Shown piece by piece: positions 7,590 through 37,563 of a stretch of 51,853 bases of DNA. Below the pieces are notes generated by a model. That model was not told where the DNA came from, did no database searches, and saw only the letters and a program-made list of their open reading frames with translations. The stretch comes from Clostridiales bacterium (GTDB lineage: Bacteria; Bacillota; Clostridia; Peptostreptococcales; Anaerovoracaceae). Location: assembly GCA_022773945.1 (NCBI GenBank), contig JALFNS010000022.1, positions 1 to 51,853 of the forward strand, written 5' to 3'. The translations under genes were made by a program, and so were the position numbers. The first letter of the stretch is position 1; each line of letters opens with the position of its first letter.

Positions 7590-7633
7590 TTTACATATTG
7601 CTGTCCTCATGCTAAAATGTAGCTAGCTACATT
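7590..7633 (+). promoter_or_regulatory. MATE promoter with perfect 18-bp MarR operator
   Basis: TTTACA (7590-7595), 17 bp, TAAAAT (7613-7618). AATGTAGCTAGCTACATT (7616-7633) is a perfect palindrome that overlaps the end of the -10 box and the start site, an ideal place for repression. Confidence 0.75.
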
Positions 7634-7649
7634 AAAAAGGGAGTAAGCA

Positions 7650-8991
7650 ATGAATCAATCACTCGAAAAGTATCACAACATGCCGGTCTCGAAGGCTGTA
7701 ATTCAGAATGCGCTGCCCGCTGTGGCGGCAATGCTCATGGTTCTCATATACAACCTGGCAGACACGTTTTTTATCGGACAGACCCACGATGCCTATCAGG
7801 TGGCGGCAGTTTCTCTGGCGACGCCTGTTTTTTTTGATTTTCATGGCGGTTGGGACTATCTTCGGAATCGGCGGAACCTCTGTTATTTCCCGGGCCTTCG
7901 GTGAGGGCAGGAAGGACTATGCCGGGAAGGTGTGTGCCTTCTGTATGTGGAGCTGCATCATAATCGGTGTGGCGGTTTCTGCAGGCTTCCTGCTGTTTAT
8001 GGACCCGATTCTTAAACTGATCGGTGCGAGTGAGGACACCTGGGAGTTTACCGAAACATATCTGACCATCGTAAGCTTCTCGGGAACCTTCGCTCTCATA
8101 TCCGGCTGCTTCTCCAATATTCTCAGGGCGGAAGGTCAGGCCGCAAAGGCTATGAAGGGGCAGCTCATCGGGAATCTGCTGAATATATGCCTTGATGCTC
8201 TGTTTATCATGGTTCTGCACTGGGAGATTACCGGTTGCGCACTTGCCACACTTTTCGGTGAGCTGGCAGGTGCCGCCTATTATCTTTATTACTACCTTAC
8301 GGGCAAGTCATCTCTCAGCGTTAACATATGTGATTTCACATTCAGAGACAAGGTACCGGGAAGCGTGTTTGCCATAGGCGTTCCCGCTGCACTGGGTTCT
8401 CTTCTGATGAGCGTTTCTCAGATTGTCATGAACAGCCGCATGTCTTCGTACGGCGATCTGGCTGTAGCGGGAGTCGGTGTAGCTATGAAGATAGTCATGA
8501 TAACAGGAATGATTTCTATGGGAATAGGGCAGGGCGTGCAGCCCCTTCTGGGATACTGTACAGGAGCCGGAGTATGGGACAGGTTCAGGCAGTATATGAA
8601 ATTCACCTTCACCTTCGCTACTGTACTGGGAGTTTCTCTGACAATACTCTGTTATATTTTCACAGATCAGATTGTGAGCATATTTCTTACGGATGAAGGC
8701 GCATCGGATTTTGCTGTGGATTTTGCGAGAATACTGTTGTCGACGGGGCCGGTCTTCGGCATATTCTATGTTATAACCAATGCGCTGCAGGCAATGGGAG
8801 CGGCCGTGCCGTCGCTGATTATCAACATCAGCAGGCAGGGGCTGGTGTACATACCGATGCTCTTCATACTGGATGCGGCTCTCGGAGTGACCGGTCTGGT
8901 GTGGGCGCAGCCCGCCGCGGGTGTTATTTCCCTCCTTATCGGGATAGTGATGTATTCCCGAGTCCTGAATCGGTCTGCGAGAAGCAATTGA
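7650..8991 (+). pseudogene. MATE-family multidrug exporter, frameshifted in a T8 tract
   Basis: Two overlapping frames together encode one MATE protein of about 447 residues. The first (7650-7904) gives MNQSLEKYHNMPVSKAVIQNALPAVAAML and NLADTFFIGQ up to ATPVFF; the second continues LIFMAVGTIFGIGGTSVISRAFGEGRKD to the stop at 8991. The shift falls in a run of eight T (7828-7835): seven T would restore a single frame. About a dozen membrane segments are present and nothing else is damaged, so this is either a recent single-base slip, phase variation, slippage during expression, or a sequencing error in a homopolymer. Ribosome site GGGAG at 7639-7643. Na+- or H+-driven export is the family role. 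Confidence 0.8.
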
Positions 8992-9017
8992 CAAAACCCC
9001 TGCCCGCCCCTTAGAAT
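8988..9017 (+). promoter_or_regulatory. Promoter of the EamA-type transporter
   Basis: TTGACA (8988-8993) overlaps the MATE stop codon; TAGAAT (9012-9017) follows after 18 bp. The start would be near 9024, giving a 67-nt leader that contains a terminator. Confidence 0.6.
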
Positions 9018-9054
9018 AGAGTCGTGAGAAGTCAGAATTGAGAAATTTGAGATT

Positions 9055-9078
9055 GCCACCCGAGAGGGTGGCTTTTTT
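9055..9078 (+). terminator. Terminator or attenuator in the leader of the EamA-type gene
   Basis: GCCACCC (9055-9061), loop GAGA, GGGTGGC (9066-9072), then six T. It is a textbook intrinsic terminator, yet only 1 nt before the ribosome site AGGAGG (9079-9084) of the next gene. With a promoter at 8988 the arrangement looks like transcription attenuation; otherwise it ends the MATE message and the next gene relies on read-through. Confidence 0.8.
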
Positions 9079-9090
9079 AGGAGGTATGAA

Positions 9091-9519
9091 ATGAATATCA
9101 GTATGGTATGGCCAATCGCTCTGGCAGTGTTCGCGGACATTTTCTATCAGATCTCGACGAAATCAACACCTGCCAACATAAACCCCTTCGCATCTCTGAC
9201 CATAACCTATCTGGTGGGTGCGGCGGTAGCGGCTGTCATATTCTTCATTACGAGCGATGGGCAAAGCCTGCTGACGGAATGGAAGTCTGTGAACTGGACC
9301 GCATTTATTCTGGGACTGGCTATTGTGGGCCTTGAAGCGGGAAGCATATACATGTACAAGGCTGGCTGGAATATTAACACAGGCTATATTGTCAAGTCAA
9401 TAATACTGGCAATCGCACTGATTGGAGTGGGTTACGTTCTGTATAAGGAACCATTCTCTCTTACTAAGGCAGCAGGAATTGCAGTGTGCCTTGTGGGGCT
9501 GTTTATTATCAATTACTGA
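9091..9519 (+). CDS. Small EamA/DMT-type four-helix membrane transporter
   Basis: A 142-residue protein with about four to five membrane segments, equal to half of an EamA-type drug/metabolite transporter. It shows the repeat pattern of the family: an N-terminal helix with LAVFADIFYQISTK, then GLEAGSIYMYKAGWNI, KSIILAIALIGVGYVLYKE and a final GIAVCLVGLFIINY. Single-repeat members usually work as dimers, as small multidrug resistance proteins do, and move cations or metabolites. Substrate unknown. Ribosome site AGGAGG 7 nt upstream. It follows the MATE gene but has its own promoter and attenuator. Confidence 0.75.
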   Translation: MNISMVWPIALAVFADIFYQISTKSTPANINPFASLTITYLVGAAVAAVIFFITSDGQSLLTEWKSVNWTAFILGLAIVGLEAGSIYMYKAGWNINTGYIVKSIILAIALIGVGYVLYKEPFSLTKAAGIAVCLVGLFIINY

Positions 9520-9530
9520 CGCAATTATGT

Positions 9531-9559
9531 TTGAATATGTATCATAATCATGTTATTAT
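9531..9559 (+). promoter_or_regulatory. Promoter of the phd-like gene
   Basis: TTGAAT (9531-9536), 17 bp, TATTAT (9554-9559). Ribosome site AGAGGTG at 9569-9575 before the ATG at 9582. Confidence 0.5.
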
Positions 9560-9581
9560 CTGAAAGAAGAGAGGTGATATA

Positions 9582-9845
9582 ATGCCACGAATTGTACCAA
9601 TAAAAGAATTAAGAAATACGAATGAGATATCAAGAATATGTCATGCGAAGGATGAGCCGGTCTTTGTGACAAAACAGGGATATGGCGATTTAGTCGTTAT
9701 GAGTGTGGAAGCATATGATAAACTTGTCGGTATCGCGGATACTGATGACGCAATAACAGCTTCAGAGGCAGAATTGGCCGCCGGATGCGAAGTTCGGGAA
9801 GCAGGTGCTGCTCTTAGCGAGCTGAGGAGGAAGCAAAGACTGTGA
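9582..9845 (+). CDS. Phd/YefM-family antitoxin without an adjacent toxin
   Basis: An 87-residue protein. The N-terminal half (IVPIKELRNTNEISRICHAKDEPVFVTKQGYGDLVVMSVEAYDKL in pieces) is the DNA-binding Phd/YefM fold; the C-terminal half is Ala/Glu-rich and would be disordered until it wraps a toxin. No RelE, YoeB or Doc gene follows directly; the next gene (9911) encodes a flavodoxin and the one after a Fic protein. It may be an orphan antitoxin that cross-acts, or what is left of a pair whose toxin was replaced. Starts at ATG with AGAGGTG seven bases upstream. Confidence 0.8.
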   Translation: MPRIVPIKELRNTNEISRICHAKDEPVFVTKQGYGDLVVMSVEAYDKLVGIADTDDAITASEAELAAGCEVREAGAALSELRRKQRL

Positions 9846-9910
9846 TTATTATTACTGTCAGATATTCTCATAGCAGTTTTTGATAATTAAAGGAACAGGG
9901 AGAGAATGAA

Positions 9911-10300
9911 ATGCAGGTTTATTATTTCACACGTACGGGAAGAAGCAGGGCGATTGCCGATGAAATCGCAGAGCGCTACAACACTGAAGCAAGAAAGATT
10001 GAAGATCACAAAAACTGGGACGGCAAGCTGAACTATATGAAGGCAGGCTTCATGGCCTGCAGAGGCAAGGCGATACCGGCTGACTATGTTGAACCGGACA
10101 TGTCGGACGATATTGTTGTTGTGTTCCCTCTATGGGCGGGAACCATGCCTCCGGGAGTGAAGACCTTCGTGGAATCCGTAGGCAGAGAGAATATTACTGC
10201 TGTCGTGACATCTCTGGGAAGTAAACTGAAGAATAGAGACGGATTCAGGAGGATAATCGATCTGGTAGGCGATGAAATAGCCGCACCGGAGGATATTTAG
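9911..10300 (+). CDS. Flavodoxin-like protein
   Basis: A 129-residue flavodoxin-fold protein that should bind FMN: the phosphate loop TRTGRSRAIADEIA (residues 7-20) opens the protein and VVVFPLWAGTMPPGVKTFVE forms the second flavin loop. It would carry electrons between partner enzymes or act as an FMN-dependent reductase. It is short and ends after EAAPEDI-like sequence, so the last helix may be abbreviated. Ribosome site CAGGGAG at 9897-9903. The stop codon is directly followed by the Fic gene start region. A recent truncated copy lies at 1400-1595, next to the AraC regulator. Confidence 0.8.
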   Translation: MQVYYFTRTGRSRAIADEIAERYNTEARKIEDHKNWDGKLNYMKAGFMACRGKAIPADYVEPDMSDDIVVVFPLWAGTMPPGVKTFVESVGRENITAVVTSLGSKLKNRDGFRRIIDLVGDEIAAPEDI

Positions 10301-10311
10301 TGAGGGGATAT

Positions 10312-10917
10312 ATGGCACTTGATAACTTGTTAGGAATCAGCGACTCTGCGGAGCTCGCTAAAGCTGAAGAAGAAATCAGCAAGAAAAAGGCTGCCCGATT
10401 ATTCGAAAGCGGGCGGCTTGATGAACTGGAACCGGGAACTTTCGAATGTCTTGCGGAGATTCATAGAGAACTGTTTGGCGAAATATATGATTTCGCCGGT
10501 AAGCTCAGAATTGTGAACATATCTAAGGGAAATTTTCGCTTCGTACCTGTTGTTTATCTGGAAGCGTCAATTAAGAGTATTGAGAAAATGCCGCAGTCTA
10601 CATTCGATGAGATTGTGGAGAAGTATGTTGAGATGAACATTGCCCATCCCTTCAGGGAGGGCAACGGCAGAAGCGCGCGCATATGGCTGGATTTGATGCT
10701 CAAGAAGGAAATATGTCAAGTAGTTGACTGGAGCGAAGTAGATAAAGATGACTACCTGATGGCAATGGAACGCAGCCCGGTTAAAGATATCGAGATTAAG
10801 CACGTATTAAAGAGCGCATTGACTGATAGGATAGATGACCGCGAAGTTTATATGAAAGGAATTGATCACAGCTACCATTACGAAGGCTATGATGCCTATA
10901 AAACAGAGGAGCTGTAG
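10312..10917 (+). CDS. Class III Fic protein with built-in inhibitory helix
   Basis: A 201-residue Fic-domain enzyme. HPFREGNGRSAR (112-123) is the complete active-site motif that transfers AMP (or another nucleotide) to a protein hydroxyl group. The C-terminal SYHYEG (187-192) fits the inhibitory motif [ST]xxxE[GN] of class III Fic proteins such as the Neisseria meningitidis enzyme, which it resembles along its length (ARLFESG, YVEMNIAHPF, AMERSPV, KGI-SY-YEGY). The enzyme should therefore be self-restrained until it changes oligomeric state or is modified. Known class III Fic proteins adenylylate DNA gyrase. ATG at 10312 is preferred over GTG at 10300 because TGAGGGG lies 5-11 nt upstream. 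Confidence 0.88.
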   Translation: MALDNLLGISDSAELAKAEEEISKKKAARLFESGRLDELEPGTFECLAEIHRELFGEIYDFAGKLRIVNISKGNFRFVPVVYLEASIKSIEKMPQSTFDEIVEKYVEMNIAHPFREGNGRSARIWLDLMLKKEICQVVDWSEVDKDDYLMAMERSPVKDIEIKHVLKSALTDRIDDREVYMKGIDHSYHYEGYDAYKTEEL

Positions 10918-10963: not shown

Positions 10964-11229
10964 AATATACCCCGGAGGGGTATATTAACAGGTCGATGTA
11001 TTCCTTTTACCCCGAAAATAGGACATTAGGAATACATGAACCCCTAAACATGGCTACGATTATATACCCGAAGCTTCGAAATTCAGACTTTAGGTATATC
11101 TAGGATCTCTTATGAGCTCTTTCATGTATGCCAAATTGGCTAAAAGCGAGGACTTAGCCGCACATACCCCATAATATTAAGCGTGCATGTATTCCTATCG
11201 GGCCGAAAACAGGGTCTAAGGAATACATG
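10964..11229 (+). repeat. Array of diverged palindromes with 63-64-nt period (copy 1)
   Basis: This gene-free stretch (10918-11263) contains a short palindrome AATATACCCC-GGA-GGGGTATATT (10964-10986) and then four dyads whose starts are 64, 64 and 63 nt apart: 10998, 11062, 11126, 11189. Dyad 1: ATGTATTCCT (10996-11005)/AGGAATACAT (11028-11037). Dyad 2: ATATACC (11062-11068)/GGTATAT (11093-11099). Dyad 3: GTATG (11126-11130)/CATAC (11163-11167), with inner GGCTAA/TTAGCC. Dyad 4: CATGTATTCCT (11186-11196)/AGGAATACATG (11219-11229). Loops share CGAAAA-AGG (1 and 4) or relatives. The stems differ between units but stay paired. Linkers are about 26 nt. Function unknown. Confidence 0.75.
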
Positions 11230-35219: not shown

Positions 35220-35511
35220 TTTTTACGTAACATACACTATGCCCGACAAGGAATCGAGAGACGGATATTACAGAGAGGTGCACGAGAGAAATATAGACGG
35301 CAAGTCCAGGAAGGAAGACGGCTGCATAAGATACGACTTTTTCTTCCCGGCTGAATCGGACAATCAGCTCTTCCTTCTGGAGCAGTGGGAGACCAGGGAG
35401 CATCAGAGGGTTCACTGCACCAGCGACCACTTCATGGAGATGGGAACTCTTAAGGAAAAATACTCTGTTACAACGGAAATCATAATCGAGGAGAGTGAAA
35501 GAATTGACTAA
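35212..35511 (+). CDS. ABM-family small monooxygenase
   Basis: A 99-residue protein of the antibiotic biosynthesis monooxygenase family (quinol monooxygenase-like dimeric ferredoxin fold). YYREVHERNIDGKSRKEDGCIRYDFFFP and LFLLEQWETREHQRVHCTSDHF are the typical halves with a conserved His near the end. Such enzymes oxidise phenols without cofactors or degrade haem; some are merely detoxifying. It overlaps the ligase gene by 8 bp and the exporter gene by 8 bp, showing coupled translation. Confidence 0.8.
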   Translation: MTNFYVTYTMPDKESRDGYYREVHERNIDGKSRKEDGCIRYDFFFPAESDNQLFLLEQWETREHQRVHCTSDHFMEMGTLKEKYSVTTEIIIEESERID

Positions 35512-36406
35512 GGCTTCCAGGAAAGGACCCCTGCTGGCAATAATAGGCGTCAACTTTATCTGGGGGTTCGACTTCATAGCCATTGAGTATCTTATGGATT
35601 ACATGCCTGCGCCTGTTCTCACTATGATGAGGGCGTTCATAGGTGCGGCAGTGCTGCTCATCTGGTGTCTGGTAAAGAAGGGCGGCATGCACATTAAACG
35701 GGCCGACTGGCCGCGTGTGTTCATAGCGGGAGGAATAGGTTTCTCAATCTATTTCTCCATTGAGAGCTACGGCACGGGTCTGACATCGGCATCCTTCTCC
35801 TCCCTCATAATGGCGACGGTTCCTATCTTCGGCATGATAGGAGACAGGATATTCTTCGGCAACAGAATAACGCCTCTCAAGGTGGTCTGCGTACTGGCAT
35901 CCATCGGCGGCGTGTATCTTCTCGTGTCGGGAGAATCTATGGGAATCAACATGAAGGGTTTCATAGCCATGATTATAGCGGCTCTTCTCTGGGCCTTCTA
36001 CATCATATATGTGAAGCCTCTCTACGATAAGTACGATCTGCCTACGCTGCTGTGCGGGCTTTTCGTATCAAGCTCTATAGTATCCGTCCCTGTGGCCATA
36101 TTCACCACGGAGCCGGGGAGCATCAACATCACTCCGATGTGCATGGTTATAATAGTTGCGACTGCCTTCGTATGCATAATAGGCGGTGAATTCGCCTATA
36201 TCTACGCCATAGGCAAGCTGTCCGTGACCATGGTATCCATATTCGAGAACGTGCTGCCTCTCACGGCGGTAATATTCTCCTTCTTCATATTCGGCAACAT
36301 GCTCAGCGGAATCCAGATAGCCGGAGGACTGCTGATCATGGCATCCGTGACGGTCATGGCCATACGCGGCGAAGGAGGAGAGGAGAAGAAGGAGGACACA
36401 CAGTGA
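35504..36406 (+). CDS. EamA/DMT-family metabolite exporter
   Basis: A membrane protein of about 300 residues with ten helices in two EamA repeats: IIGVNFIWGFDFIAIEYLMD and a second copy starting GFIAMIIAALLWAFYIIYVKPLYDKY, ending in IAGGLLIMASVTVMAIRG. TTG at 35504 is the likely start because GAGGAG (35488-35493) lies ten bases upstream; GTG at 35495 is too close to it. As part of the acyltransferase-ligase-monooxygenase operon it may export the product made there. Confidence 0.8.
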   Translation: MTKASRKGPLLAIIGVNFIWGFDFIAIEYLMDYMPAPVLTMMRAFIGAAVLLIWCLVKKGGMHIKRADWPRVFIAGGIGFSIYFSIESYGTGLTSASFSSLIMATVPIFGMIGDRIFFGNRITPLKVVCVLASIGGVYLLVSGESMGINMKGFIAMIIAALLWAFYIIYVKPLYDKYDLPTLLCGLFVSSSIVSVPVAIFTTEPGSINITPMCMVIIVATAFVCIIGGEFAYIYAIGKLSVTMVSIFENVLPLTAVIFSFFIFGNMLSGIQIAGGLLIMASVTVMAIRGEGGEEKKEDTQ

Positions 36407-36625: not shown

Positions 36626-36910
36626 GTATGTATCTAAATTTGAAGAAATGAAGAGAAATAGATACAGTCCACCTAACTTCGAAGAGCGGAAAGTATCTAT
36701 TTTCTTCGAAAACAGGAAATATAGATAAATAAATCCCGATTTCAAGGGTGTTTATCAGCTAAAACTGTATAATTAGATACACATCGACATTGAAATCCGA
36801 CGGGATTGTATCTATTTTGGTAGGAAATCGAAAATATAGATACATAGCCCATACAGTCCACAGCCTGTATGTATCCAAAAATGAAGAAAACCTCTGAAAT
36901 AGATACATAC
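36626..36910 (+). repeat. Array of diverged palindromes with 63-nt period (copy 2)
   Basis: Between 36613 and 37041 there is no gene. Four 36-nt dyads with ends GTATCY...AAATAGATAC or close start at 36630, 36693, 36808 and 36871; the first and last pairs are exactly 63 nt apart with 27-nt linkers, and a shortened fifth unit (36750-36780) lies in the gap. Stems: GTATCTA with a bulge/AAATAGATAC; GTATCTATTTT/AAATATAGAT (twice, with the same bulged A); GTATGTATC (36867-36875)/GATACATAC (36902-36910). Loops hold GAAGAAA, CGAAAACAGGA, GGAAATCGAA, GAAGAAAAC, like those at 10996-11229. Two linkers share ACAGTCCAC. All units point the same way. Function unknown. Confidence 0.75.
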
Positions 36911-37041: not shown

Positions 37042-37563
37042 ATGAGTGAGCTGCAGTTCAGAGAGGGGCAGCTGGTAGCCTACGGGGCTAATGGGGTATG
37101 TGTTGTAGATGAGATAAAGAAGATGAAGCTTATGCCGGACATGGCTCCGGAGATGTATTACATACTCAAGACCATCAGAGATGATGCTTCGAAGGTGTTT
37201 GTTCCTGTTAACAACAGCAGACTCGTTTCGAGGATGAGAGATGTTATGAATGAGGATCAGCTCAGGAGTATGATAAGCACTACACAGATTGATGAAATGT
37301 CATGGAATGACAACCGCAGGGAGCGTGCTGATGAATTCCACGATATTATCGGAGAAGGCGTCAGCGGCAAGCTTCTCAGCATGGTGTACTGTCTTCATAA
37401 ACGGAAGGAATCCCTGATGGATGCGGGGAAGAAGCTCCCGGTTACAGACTCAAATGCATTGAAGACAGCGGAGAGACTCCTCGAGGACGAAATATCCTGT
37501 GTCATGCACATAGAAGAGAAGGACGTATACGATTTTATAAGAGGAATAATAGGCAGCCGGTAA
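37042..37563 (+). CDS. CarD-family transcription regulator
   Basis: A 173-residue CarD/CdnL-type protein. The N-terminal about 60 residues are the RNA-polymerase-interacting domain (FREGQLVAYGANGVCVVDEIKKM, then YYILKTI and VFVPVNN), which touches the beta subunit lobe; the helical C-terminal part (about 75-170) binds DNA at the edge of the promoter bubble, helping open complexes. This is a core regulator, and it lies directly before the fatty-acid operon, but a terminator separates them. Confidence 0.88.
   Translation: MSELQFREGQLVAYGANGVCVVDEIKKMKLMPDMAPEMYYILKTIRDDASKVFVPVNNSRLVSRMRDVMNEDQLRSMISTTQIDEMSWNDNRRERADEFHDIIGEGVSGKLLSMVYCLHKRKESLMDAGKKLPVTDSNALKTAERLLEDEISCVMHIEEKDVYDFIRGIIGSR

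Follow-up and report, generated by a model that had tools for sequence, protein, structure and literature searches.

The window, that is, the whole 51,853-nt stretch of DNA analysed here, is one of the 50 contigs of a 1.83-Mb Clostridiales genome (G000). Between an EamA-family transporter gene and a CarD-like regulator gene it carries an array of short palindromes, called array 2 in the following; a second array, array 1, has different arms.

10996..11228, + strand: array 1, second element family, arms ATGTATTCC...GGAATACAT (five copies by blastn)
10996-11037 and 11187-11228, + strand: outer units of array 1, with two weak units between them
35495..36406, + strand: EamA-family transporter gene, 5′ of array 2 (Pfam PF00892; context only)
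36630..36906, + strand: array 2, degenerate copy of a ~310-nt five-palindrome element of the GTATCYA family (pattern scans, alignment, blastn)
36630..36665, + strand: unit 1, GTATCTA-N22-TAGATAC (perfect match)
36693..36728, + strand: unit 2, right arm ending TAGATAA (one mismatch)
36765..36780, + strand: remnant of unit 3, right half, adjoining a 32-nt gap (copy alignment; position from the sequence)
36808..36843, + strand: unit 4 (perfect match)
36871..36906, + strand: unit 5, with GTATCCA as left arm (one mismatch)
37042..37563, + strand: CarD-like regulator gene, 3′ of array 2 (Pfam PF02559; context only)

Array 2 is confirmed as a genuine repeat array. It contains four complete palindromes of 36 nt each plus half of a fifth, with start spacings of 63, 115 and 63 nt, in agreement with the 63-nt distance within pairs that the original prediction had read from the letters alone. 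All four complete units have the length of 36 nt claimed there, but the claimed GTATC...GATAC ends do not hold for unit 2, which ends in GATAA. The shortened unit seen in the middle corresponds to the right half of a unit that ends at 36780, beside a 32-nt gap relative to complete copies of the element, and the sequence said to be common to two linkers, ACAGTCCAC, is present in both. The loop motif and its direction had been described as matching array 1; both arrays indeed have an A-rich asymmetric centre, whereas an identical motif was not found.

When a palindrome finder was applied to 147 overlapping 700-nt segments of the 51.9-kb contig, array 2 was the sole call. The same finder misses array 1, where strong arms are present in only two of the four units, and the first scanner used had missed array 2 because of the 115-nt gap. 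Rfam gave no match above the gathering score in the window. A Fic/DOC family gene is located 5′ of array 1 (window positions 10300-10914).

Dispersed copies and further arm families

The perfect pattern GTATCTA-N{20,26}-TAGATAC occurs at 15 places in G000, all with N22, and the reversed-pattern control at none. Allowing one mismatch to the arm pattern raised the number to 35 (control 0); with up to three mismatches, 87 places were found compared with 62 in the control, which indicates that weak single matches arise mostly by chance. Nine copies of the element (family 1) are located on contigs C1 (two), C2, C6, C20 (two), C29 (two) and C47, the window. Their alignment gave the layout U1-63-U2-84-U3-63-U4-63-U5, typically with five 36-nt palindromes of the form GTATCYA-N22-TRGATAC, in an intergenic element of ~310 nt; several of the copies have a stop codon at a distance of about 20 nt or less. 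By blastn, array 2 is 66% identical (E 1.3e-20) to the copy on C6, which is linked to a predicted nuclease gene, and family-1 copies match the C6 copy with 66-71% identity over long or full-length matches. Divided by part, identity is 0.87 in the arms, 0.69 in the interiors and 0.56 in the linkers. The copy of the window has lost half of U3, and C29b retains U1, U4 and U5; C20b is shortened and shows a junction of U2 and U3. In an array on C29 (L027), the last codons of a convergent aminotransferase-like gene fall inside the fifth palindrome (C29:26319-26354).

As 63 and 84 are multiples of three and one copy has an open frame, a coding repeat was considered and rejected: other copies have stops in that frame, lengths of 62, 64, 82 and 83 also occur, and the wider set of spacings is phased at 10.5 bp rather than at multiples of three. 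A viral origin was rejected as well. Seven related viral contigs from IMG/VR (L044-L050) match the two-unit pattern by chance; they carry one short direct repeat, identical in all seven, without the architecture of array 2. The 40 relatives scanned for family-1 arms yielded singletons only, at control level, and blastn matches of three arrays of G000 across 49 genomes were confined to G000. Elsewhere, a related pattern was seen in a Bacillota MAG from water buffalo (RGIG7444; JAFYUX010000085.1, L043), which contains nine units with TGTATCT arms and a period of 62-64 nt (174-715), directly followed at about 729-1065 by a second palindrome row with GTTGCTG-type arms and a period of about 62 nt.

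Besides GTATCYA, at least three arm families are present in G000. The array-1 family comprises five copies, all of them within G000 when 49 genomes were searched by blastn, and the third family, with TGTACAC arms, was found on C1 and C9, while C25 carries related arms. The fourth (TTCTGACA) is represented by five near-full and two weaker copies in the stretches of G000 scanned; four of the near-full copies match the same 284-nt interval of the query to within one base, and the copies are 78-81% identical over this sharp interval. A scan for rows of like palindromes in 464 kb of G000, partly selected for arrays already known, returned 11 rows, of which L121 is doubtful; block-shuffled copies gave none. 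The view that the loci imply a whole family of structured repeats is thus borne out by the nine copies of the array-2 element together with the further arm families, and the genome-wide count of dyads and their spacing showed that other arrays exist and that the spacing is not random.

Helical phase of the palindromes

Start spacings cluster at 40-42, 51-54, 61-64, 71-76, 82-86, 92-95, 103-106, 115, 125-126, 135 and 146-147 nt, and a single spacing, 48, falls off this series. When periods from 6 to 25 bp were scanned, the best was 10.50 bp (R 0.82, n=105 spacings from 50 arrays), with each value counted once per array and 8 near-duplicate loci dropped for this statistic only. Using one spacing per array for the 50 arrays, R was about 0.81 (p~7e-15), and in 2000 uniform draws R never rose above 0.30; the lengths of the palindromes themselves are unphased (R 0.28). 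A phase of 10.50 bp fits proteins arranged along a single face of double-stranded DNA. Whole-turn spacing is not a rule that an RNA array would predict. An excess of G-U over A-C mismatches in the arms, the sign of an RNA hairpin, is absent, with 84 to 82 in all linked arrays and 7 to 17 in the family of the window. The repeat RNA that had been put forward as one explanation of the array is therefore not upheld, given the helically phased spacing, the lack of a G-U bias, the lack of an Rfam match and reading frames that are not kept between copies.

Predicted nucleases and the arrays beside their genes

On C6, only 11 nt separate the start of the family-1 array from the stop codon of the preceding gene, which encodes a 258-aa protein (C6:58698-59475). 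A related gene on C25, 44% identical, ends 14 nt from the C25 array. On C9 a third gene is followed by an Rpn gene and then, at 979 nt, by an array; the C9 and C6 proteins are 72% identical and lie near arrays with different arms. These three proteins of G000 gave no informative Pfam or NCBIfam match and none to PDDEXK_2/Rpn (PF12784), Pfam scans of 23 members of the array-linked family gave no match either, and the best PHROG match, to a Holliday junction resolvase annotation, was poor (E 0.0011). An AlphaFold (AF2) model had a mean pLDDT of 87.8. Foldseek searches with its C-terminal half returned 1t0f (TnsA, probability 1.00) and R2 entries (0.87-0.94), with E values of 0.014-0.06 and no match at E<0.001. 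Across 92 loci of the genus, the putative active-site residues E157 and D187 are present in all 92 and E201 in 90, while position 202 is H in 85, where the PD-(D/E)XK motif has K. By predicted fold and conserved E/D/E residues, the family is classed as a PD-(D/E)XK nuclease. Its N-terminal ~105 residues are predicted to form a helix, three strands and a long helix; an arm-type DNA-binding fold, guessed from this topology, was not supported by Foldseek, whose weak matches, prefoldin among them, are coiled coils.

A profile of the three proteins detected the family in 46 of the 49 genomes of the genus, with up to 15 matches per genome. A profile of 23 members, for which no more than 6 candidates were scored in any genome, detected it in 46 of 391 genomes sampled from the class (28 of 223 genera). 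Plasmids contributed 1 partial match in 72,556 records and phages 3 partial matches in 50,697; none of 76 pattern matches in viral contigs was confirmed. Two human faecal phage scaffolds (L275, L277) contain ORFs of about 1200 aa, part of which resembles the nuclease domain and which are possibly PDC-S68-like.

With a second finder, for which the threshold was set per window by shuffling, an array was found to adjoin the gene at 57 of 124 family loci (43/92 in the genus, 14/32 at class or phage loci) compared with 10 of 823 random windows, two windows being tested per nuclease locus and one per random control. The arrays are located upstream of the gene in 32 cases and downstream in 25, and no array was detected by this finder at the other 67 loci. 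The two loci that gave rise to the idea (L025 and L125) are counted here (55/122 without both), L155, with an array 979 nt away, is scored as a miss, and the class loci include proteins of other architecture, e.g., L270, L271, L275 and L277. A strict scanner applied to the first 30 loci found arrays at 14, and at 0 of 150 shuffles. Among the 10 control hits, four windows stem from one repeat of L084 and four contain true phased arrays. The L084 repeat (G062, about 7590-10350) is regular and palindromic with a period of 66-69 nt, has the appearance of a CRISPR array, and provides an unphased contrast.

Arm sequences differ between most loci, and arrays have up to 16 units. Half-sites are not in excess on the opposite side of the gene (25 compared with 22.9 expected, 53 loci). 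The gene is thus not located inside a TIR-bounded transposon, and a gene between two arrays is not the general arrangement; at L263, an exception, like arms flank the gene on both sides, in arrays of 10 and 16 units. Rpn was also considered as the partner enzyme and rejected: only 5 of 27 Rpn loci of other genomes adjoin arrays, and in G053 and G047 the Rpn-side arrays carry the arms of the orphan nuclease. Both Rpn/PDDEXK_2 genes of G000 adjoin arrays (C1:24518-27043, L023; C9:4804-6813, L112). On C1 the segment of array and rpn occurs twice, and of one rpn copy only a remnant is left; in G053 the Rpn genes of L140 and L146 are flanked by arrays on both sides, at L146 with two arm families.

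Of 1596 pairs of loci, 1588 show lower conservation in the N-terminal part of the protein than in the C-terminal half. Among pairs with a C-half identity of >=0.6, the arms are common in 0 of 23 with an N-half identity <0.42, compared with 9 of 13 above this value. The overall AUC for arm sharing is 0.69 for the N-half and 0.57 for the C-half, the modest N-half value being due in part to short arm words that match by chance. As far as sequence comparison can establish it, the arms follow the variable N-terminus rather than the predicted catalytic half. At one locus the family gene lies, in four genomes, behind the same upstream gene, which we take to be groEL from its C-terminal repeat. There, L163 and L164 compared with L165 are 94-95% identical in the flank and 87% in the C-terminal half and beyond, while the array arms are unrelated and the N-halves divergent, i.e., arrays and N-halves change together; in L162 the C-half is more diverged, yet the arms and the N-half are L163-like.

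Many arrays stand alone. G053 has 8 in 477 kb and G047 23 in 397 kb, some of them low-scoring, and no family ORF was found among the 3012 ORFs of the stretches scanned (G053, G047, G062). Arms of a nuclease-linked array of the same genome were carried by 7 of the 8 solo arrays of G053, several stretches of which were picked near Rpn hits, and by 11 of the 23 of G047, for which 8 of its 15 nuclease loci were compared and the other 12 arrays match none of the nuclease-linked arrays; both genomes were picked after arm matches had been seen there. Overall, arms are shared in 25 of 178 same-genome comparisons versus 5 of 2045 between genomes, all five of which represent one orthologue in G048. Eight arrays of G000 were hand-picked for this comparison. 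The four family-1 arrays tested, including that of the window, all match the C6 nuclease array, and the four family-4 arrays tested match none of the nuclease-linked arrays compared. G062, with one partial family match, gave one weak, unphased array call in 200 kb.

Within one family of G047 or G053, the arms of different arrays are 0.95-1.00 identical and the interiors 0.39-0.44, compared with 0.30-0.32 after shuffling; family 1 of the window is younger or slower than these families. Such conservation of arms over interiors would be unlike fresh copies of a miniature transposon and like binding sites kept over a long time. No target-site duplication was seen by eye in the flanks of four families.

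A candidate nuclease-and-binding-site system

We think it likely that the arrays are double-stranded DNA binding platforms of cognate nucleases, organised in a RAYT/REP-like manner with an unrelated enzyme, and that array 2 is a solo member. The palindromes, their helical phase, the adjacency to nuclease genes, the coupling to the N-terminus, the sharing of arms within a genome and the conservation of arms over interiors are established at the level of sequence, and we infer from them that the nuclease binds the arms and that arrays spread in trans by cutting and recombination, as proposed for RAYTs on REPs. In such a platform, palindromic sites would follow one another along a single face of the helix, their starts 4 to 14 whole turns apart. 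They would be recognised by a cognate PD-(D/E)XK nuclease, in which the variable N-terminal ~105 residues would set the arm sequence and the conserved C-terminal half would carry the E/D/E active site. Each family would usually have one array beside the nuclease gene and further arrays with the same arms alone between genes. The N-terminal domain, probably as a dimer, would bind the palindrome, phased units would allow several dimers in line on one face, and cutting at arrays may promote copying or exchange, leading to solo arrays and to turnover of specificity. Dispersed arrays may be maintained for their ability to keep the nuclease on a single face of the helix. The cognate enzyme of the window array would be the product of C6:58698-59475 in G000. 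Against this reading stand the 67 family loci at which no array was detected, the lack of excess half-sites on the opposite side of the gene, the target-site duplication that was not seen, the arrays of G047 and family 4 that match none of the nuclease-linked arrays compared, the different arms near the 72% identical C6 and C9 nucleases, the modest AUC for arm sharing and the weak Foldseek matches. The suggestion in the original prediction of a chromosome-organising site or the target of an unknown recombinase came close, in that the arrays track a nuclease family.

The main rival is the sequestration of a defence nuclease, in which an antiviral enzyme would be held inactive on phased arrays, as decoy or operator, and freed or activated by foreign DNA, so that the turnover of arms and N-termini would reflect an arms race. 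In all 23 members the catalytic half matches the C-terminus of PDC-S68 candidate defence proteins (PADLOC), the catalytic residues are retained, with a faster divergence of the N-half (1588/1596 pairs), loci stay at one place in several species, and hardly any relatives exist on plasmids, phages or viral contigs. However, PDC-S68 is only a candidate class in PADLOC, and an operator role does not explain arrays 3′ of the gene (25/57) or the many solo arrays; we consider this reading fairly unlikely. Purely selfish miniature transposons, with the arms as terminal inverted repeats and some other protein as the enzyme, appear unlikely to us. Family 4, with copies 78-81% identical over one sharp 284-nt interval, has the sharp common ends in dispersed copies by which MITEs are recognised, and family-1 copies are 66-71% identical over their full length; against this stand arms that are 95-100% alike where the interiors are nearly random, the target-site duplication that was not seen, and the constraint on spacing and phase.

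The fixed arms, variable interiors and 36-nt units also recall TIGR arrays and their 36-nt tigRNAs, as described in the accessible part of PMC12045711, and would suit a CRISPR-like or TIGR-type array of stem-loop guides, with arms as stems and interiors as spacers. This is highly improbable in view of the 10.5-bp phase, the equal G-U and A-C mismatches, the many arrays without an adjacent family gene and a neighbouring protein that has a predicted nuclease fold, with no Nop match in the Pfam scans of 23 family members. Least credible of all are REP/BIME repeats of the classical kind, with a Y1 tyrosine transposase (RAYT) as the mobilising enzyme. They share with the arrays the size class of the palindromes, the extragenic location, the regular spacing and the species specificity (accessible parts of PMC2817692 and PMC3733652), but Y1_Tnp (PF01797) has no match in G000 while present in 5 of 14 control genomes, which contradicts this origin for G000. 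In addition, the units, as read from their asymmetric centre, run head to tail and do not alternate, no GTAG or CGTC tag was seen by eye next to the palindromes in the aligned units, and the adjoining gene encodes a predicted PD-(D/E)XK nuclease.

Returning to binding platforms of cognate nucleases, the arrays and the orphan nuclease suggest an unrecognised nuclease-and-binding-site system. On balance, we lean towards its being class-wide, with a swappable N-terminal domain that sets helically phased arrays which are kept in step as specificity changes. If so, one array would lie by the gene and as many as dozens elsewhere on the chromosome, and the system would represent a second way of maintaining a dispersed palindromic repeat, unrelated to RAYT/REP and possibly co-opted as a nuclease-sequestering or chromosome-organising network. 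An orphan nuclease family found in 46/49 genomes of the genus and 28/223 sampled genera of the class would gain a concrete candidate DNA substrate, and as arms differ between most loci, each locus would be a ready specificity pair. Arrays at many chromosomal sites that change together with one enzyme raise the question of how such networks evolve. The system may also bear on the Rpn nucleases; the accessible part of PMC5350276 raises their true target site as an open problem. The literature searched, largely papers available without subscription, held no description of nuclease-linked phased palindrome arrays.

Among known systems, TIGR arrays resemble the present ones in their tandem units, palindromic stems and 36-nt scale and, in what is accessible of PMC12045711, differ in encoding RNA guides that act with Nop proteins, in contrast to the double-stranded DNA phase and predicted nuclease here. 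TnsA of Tn7 and R2-type endonucleases are the best Foldseek matches of the catalytic half, at E 0.014-0.06 only. Rpn/PDDEXK_2 (YhgA-like) proteins are PD-(D/E)XK enzymes that likewise combine a conserved catalytic part with a variable part suspected of sequence recognition, and some of their genes adjoin arrays (5/27 loci); in contrast, the array-linked family has no Pfam match and its variable part is N-terminal, and the accessible portions of PMC5350276 and PMC10327210 describe no array as a target of Rpn. REP/RAYT comes closest of the known systems; it is alike in organisation and not in enzyme, and the arrays are not members of it. According to the accessible sections of PMC2817692 and PMC3733652, the RAYT enzyme is of the HUH/Y1 type and REPs lie on both sides of its gene, whereas here the enzyme is a predicted PD-(D/E)XK nuclease and the array is usually on one side; the present arrays also differ in their double-stranded DNA helical phase, their head-to-tail units and the GTAG tag that was not seen. 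Shared with REP/BIME and RAYT, in the same sources, are the regular clustering of short extragenic palindromes, their dispersal and species specificity, the presence of copies beside the gene of a cognate enzyme, and the co-evolution of the repeats with an enzyme that diverges fast.
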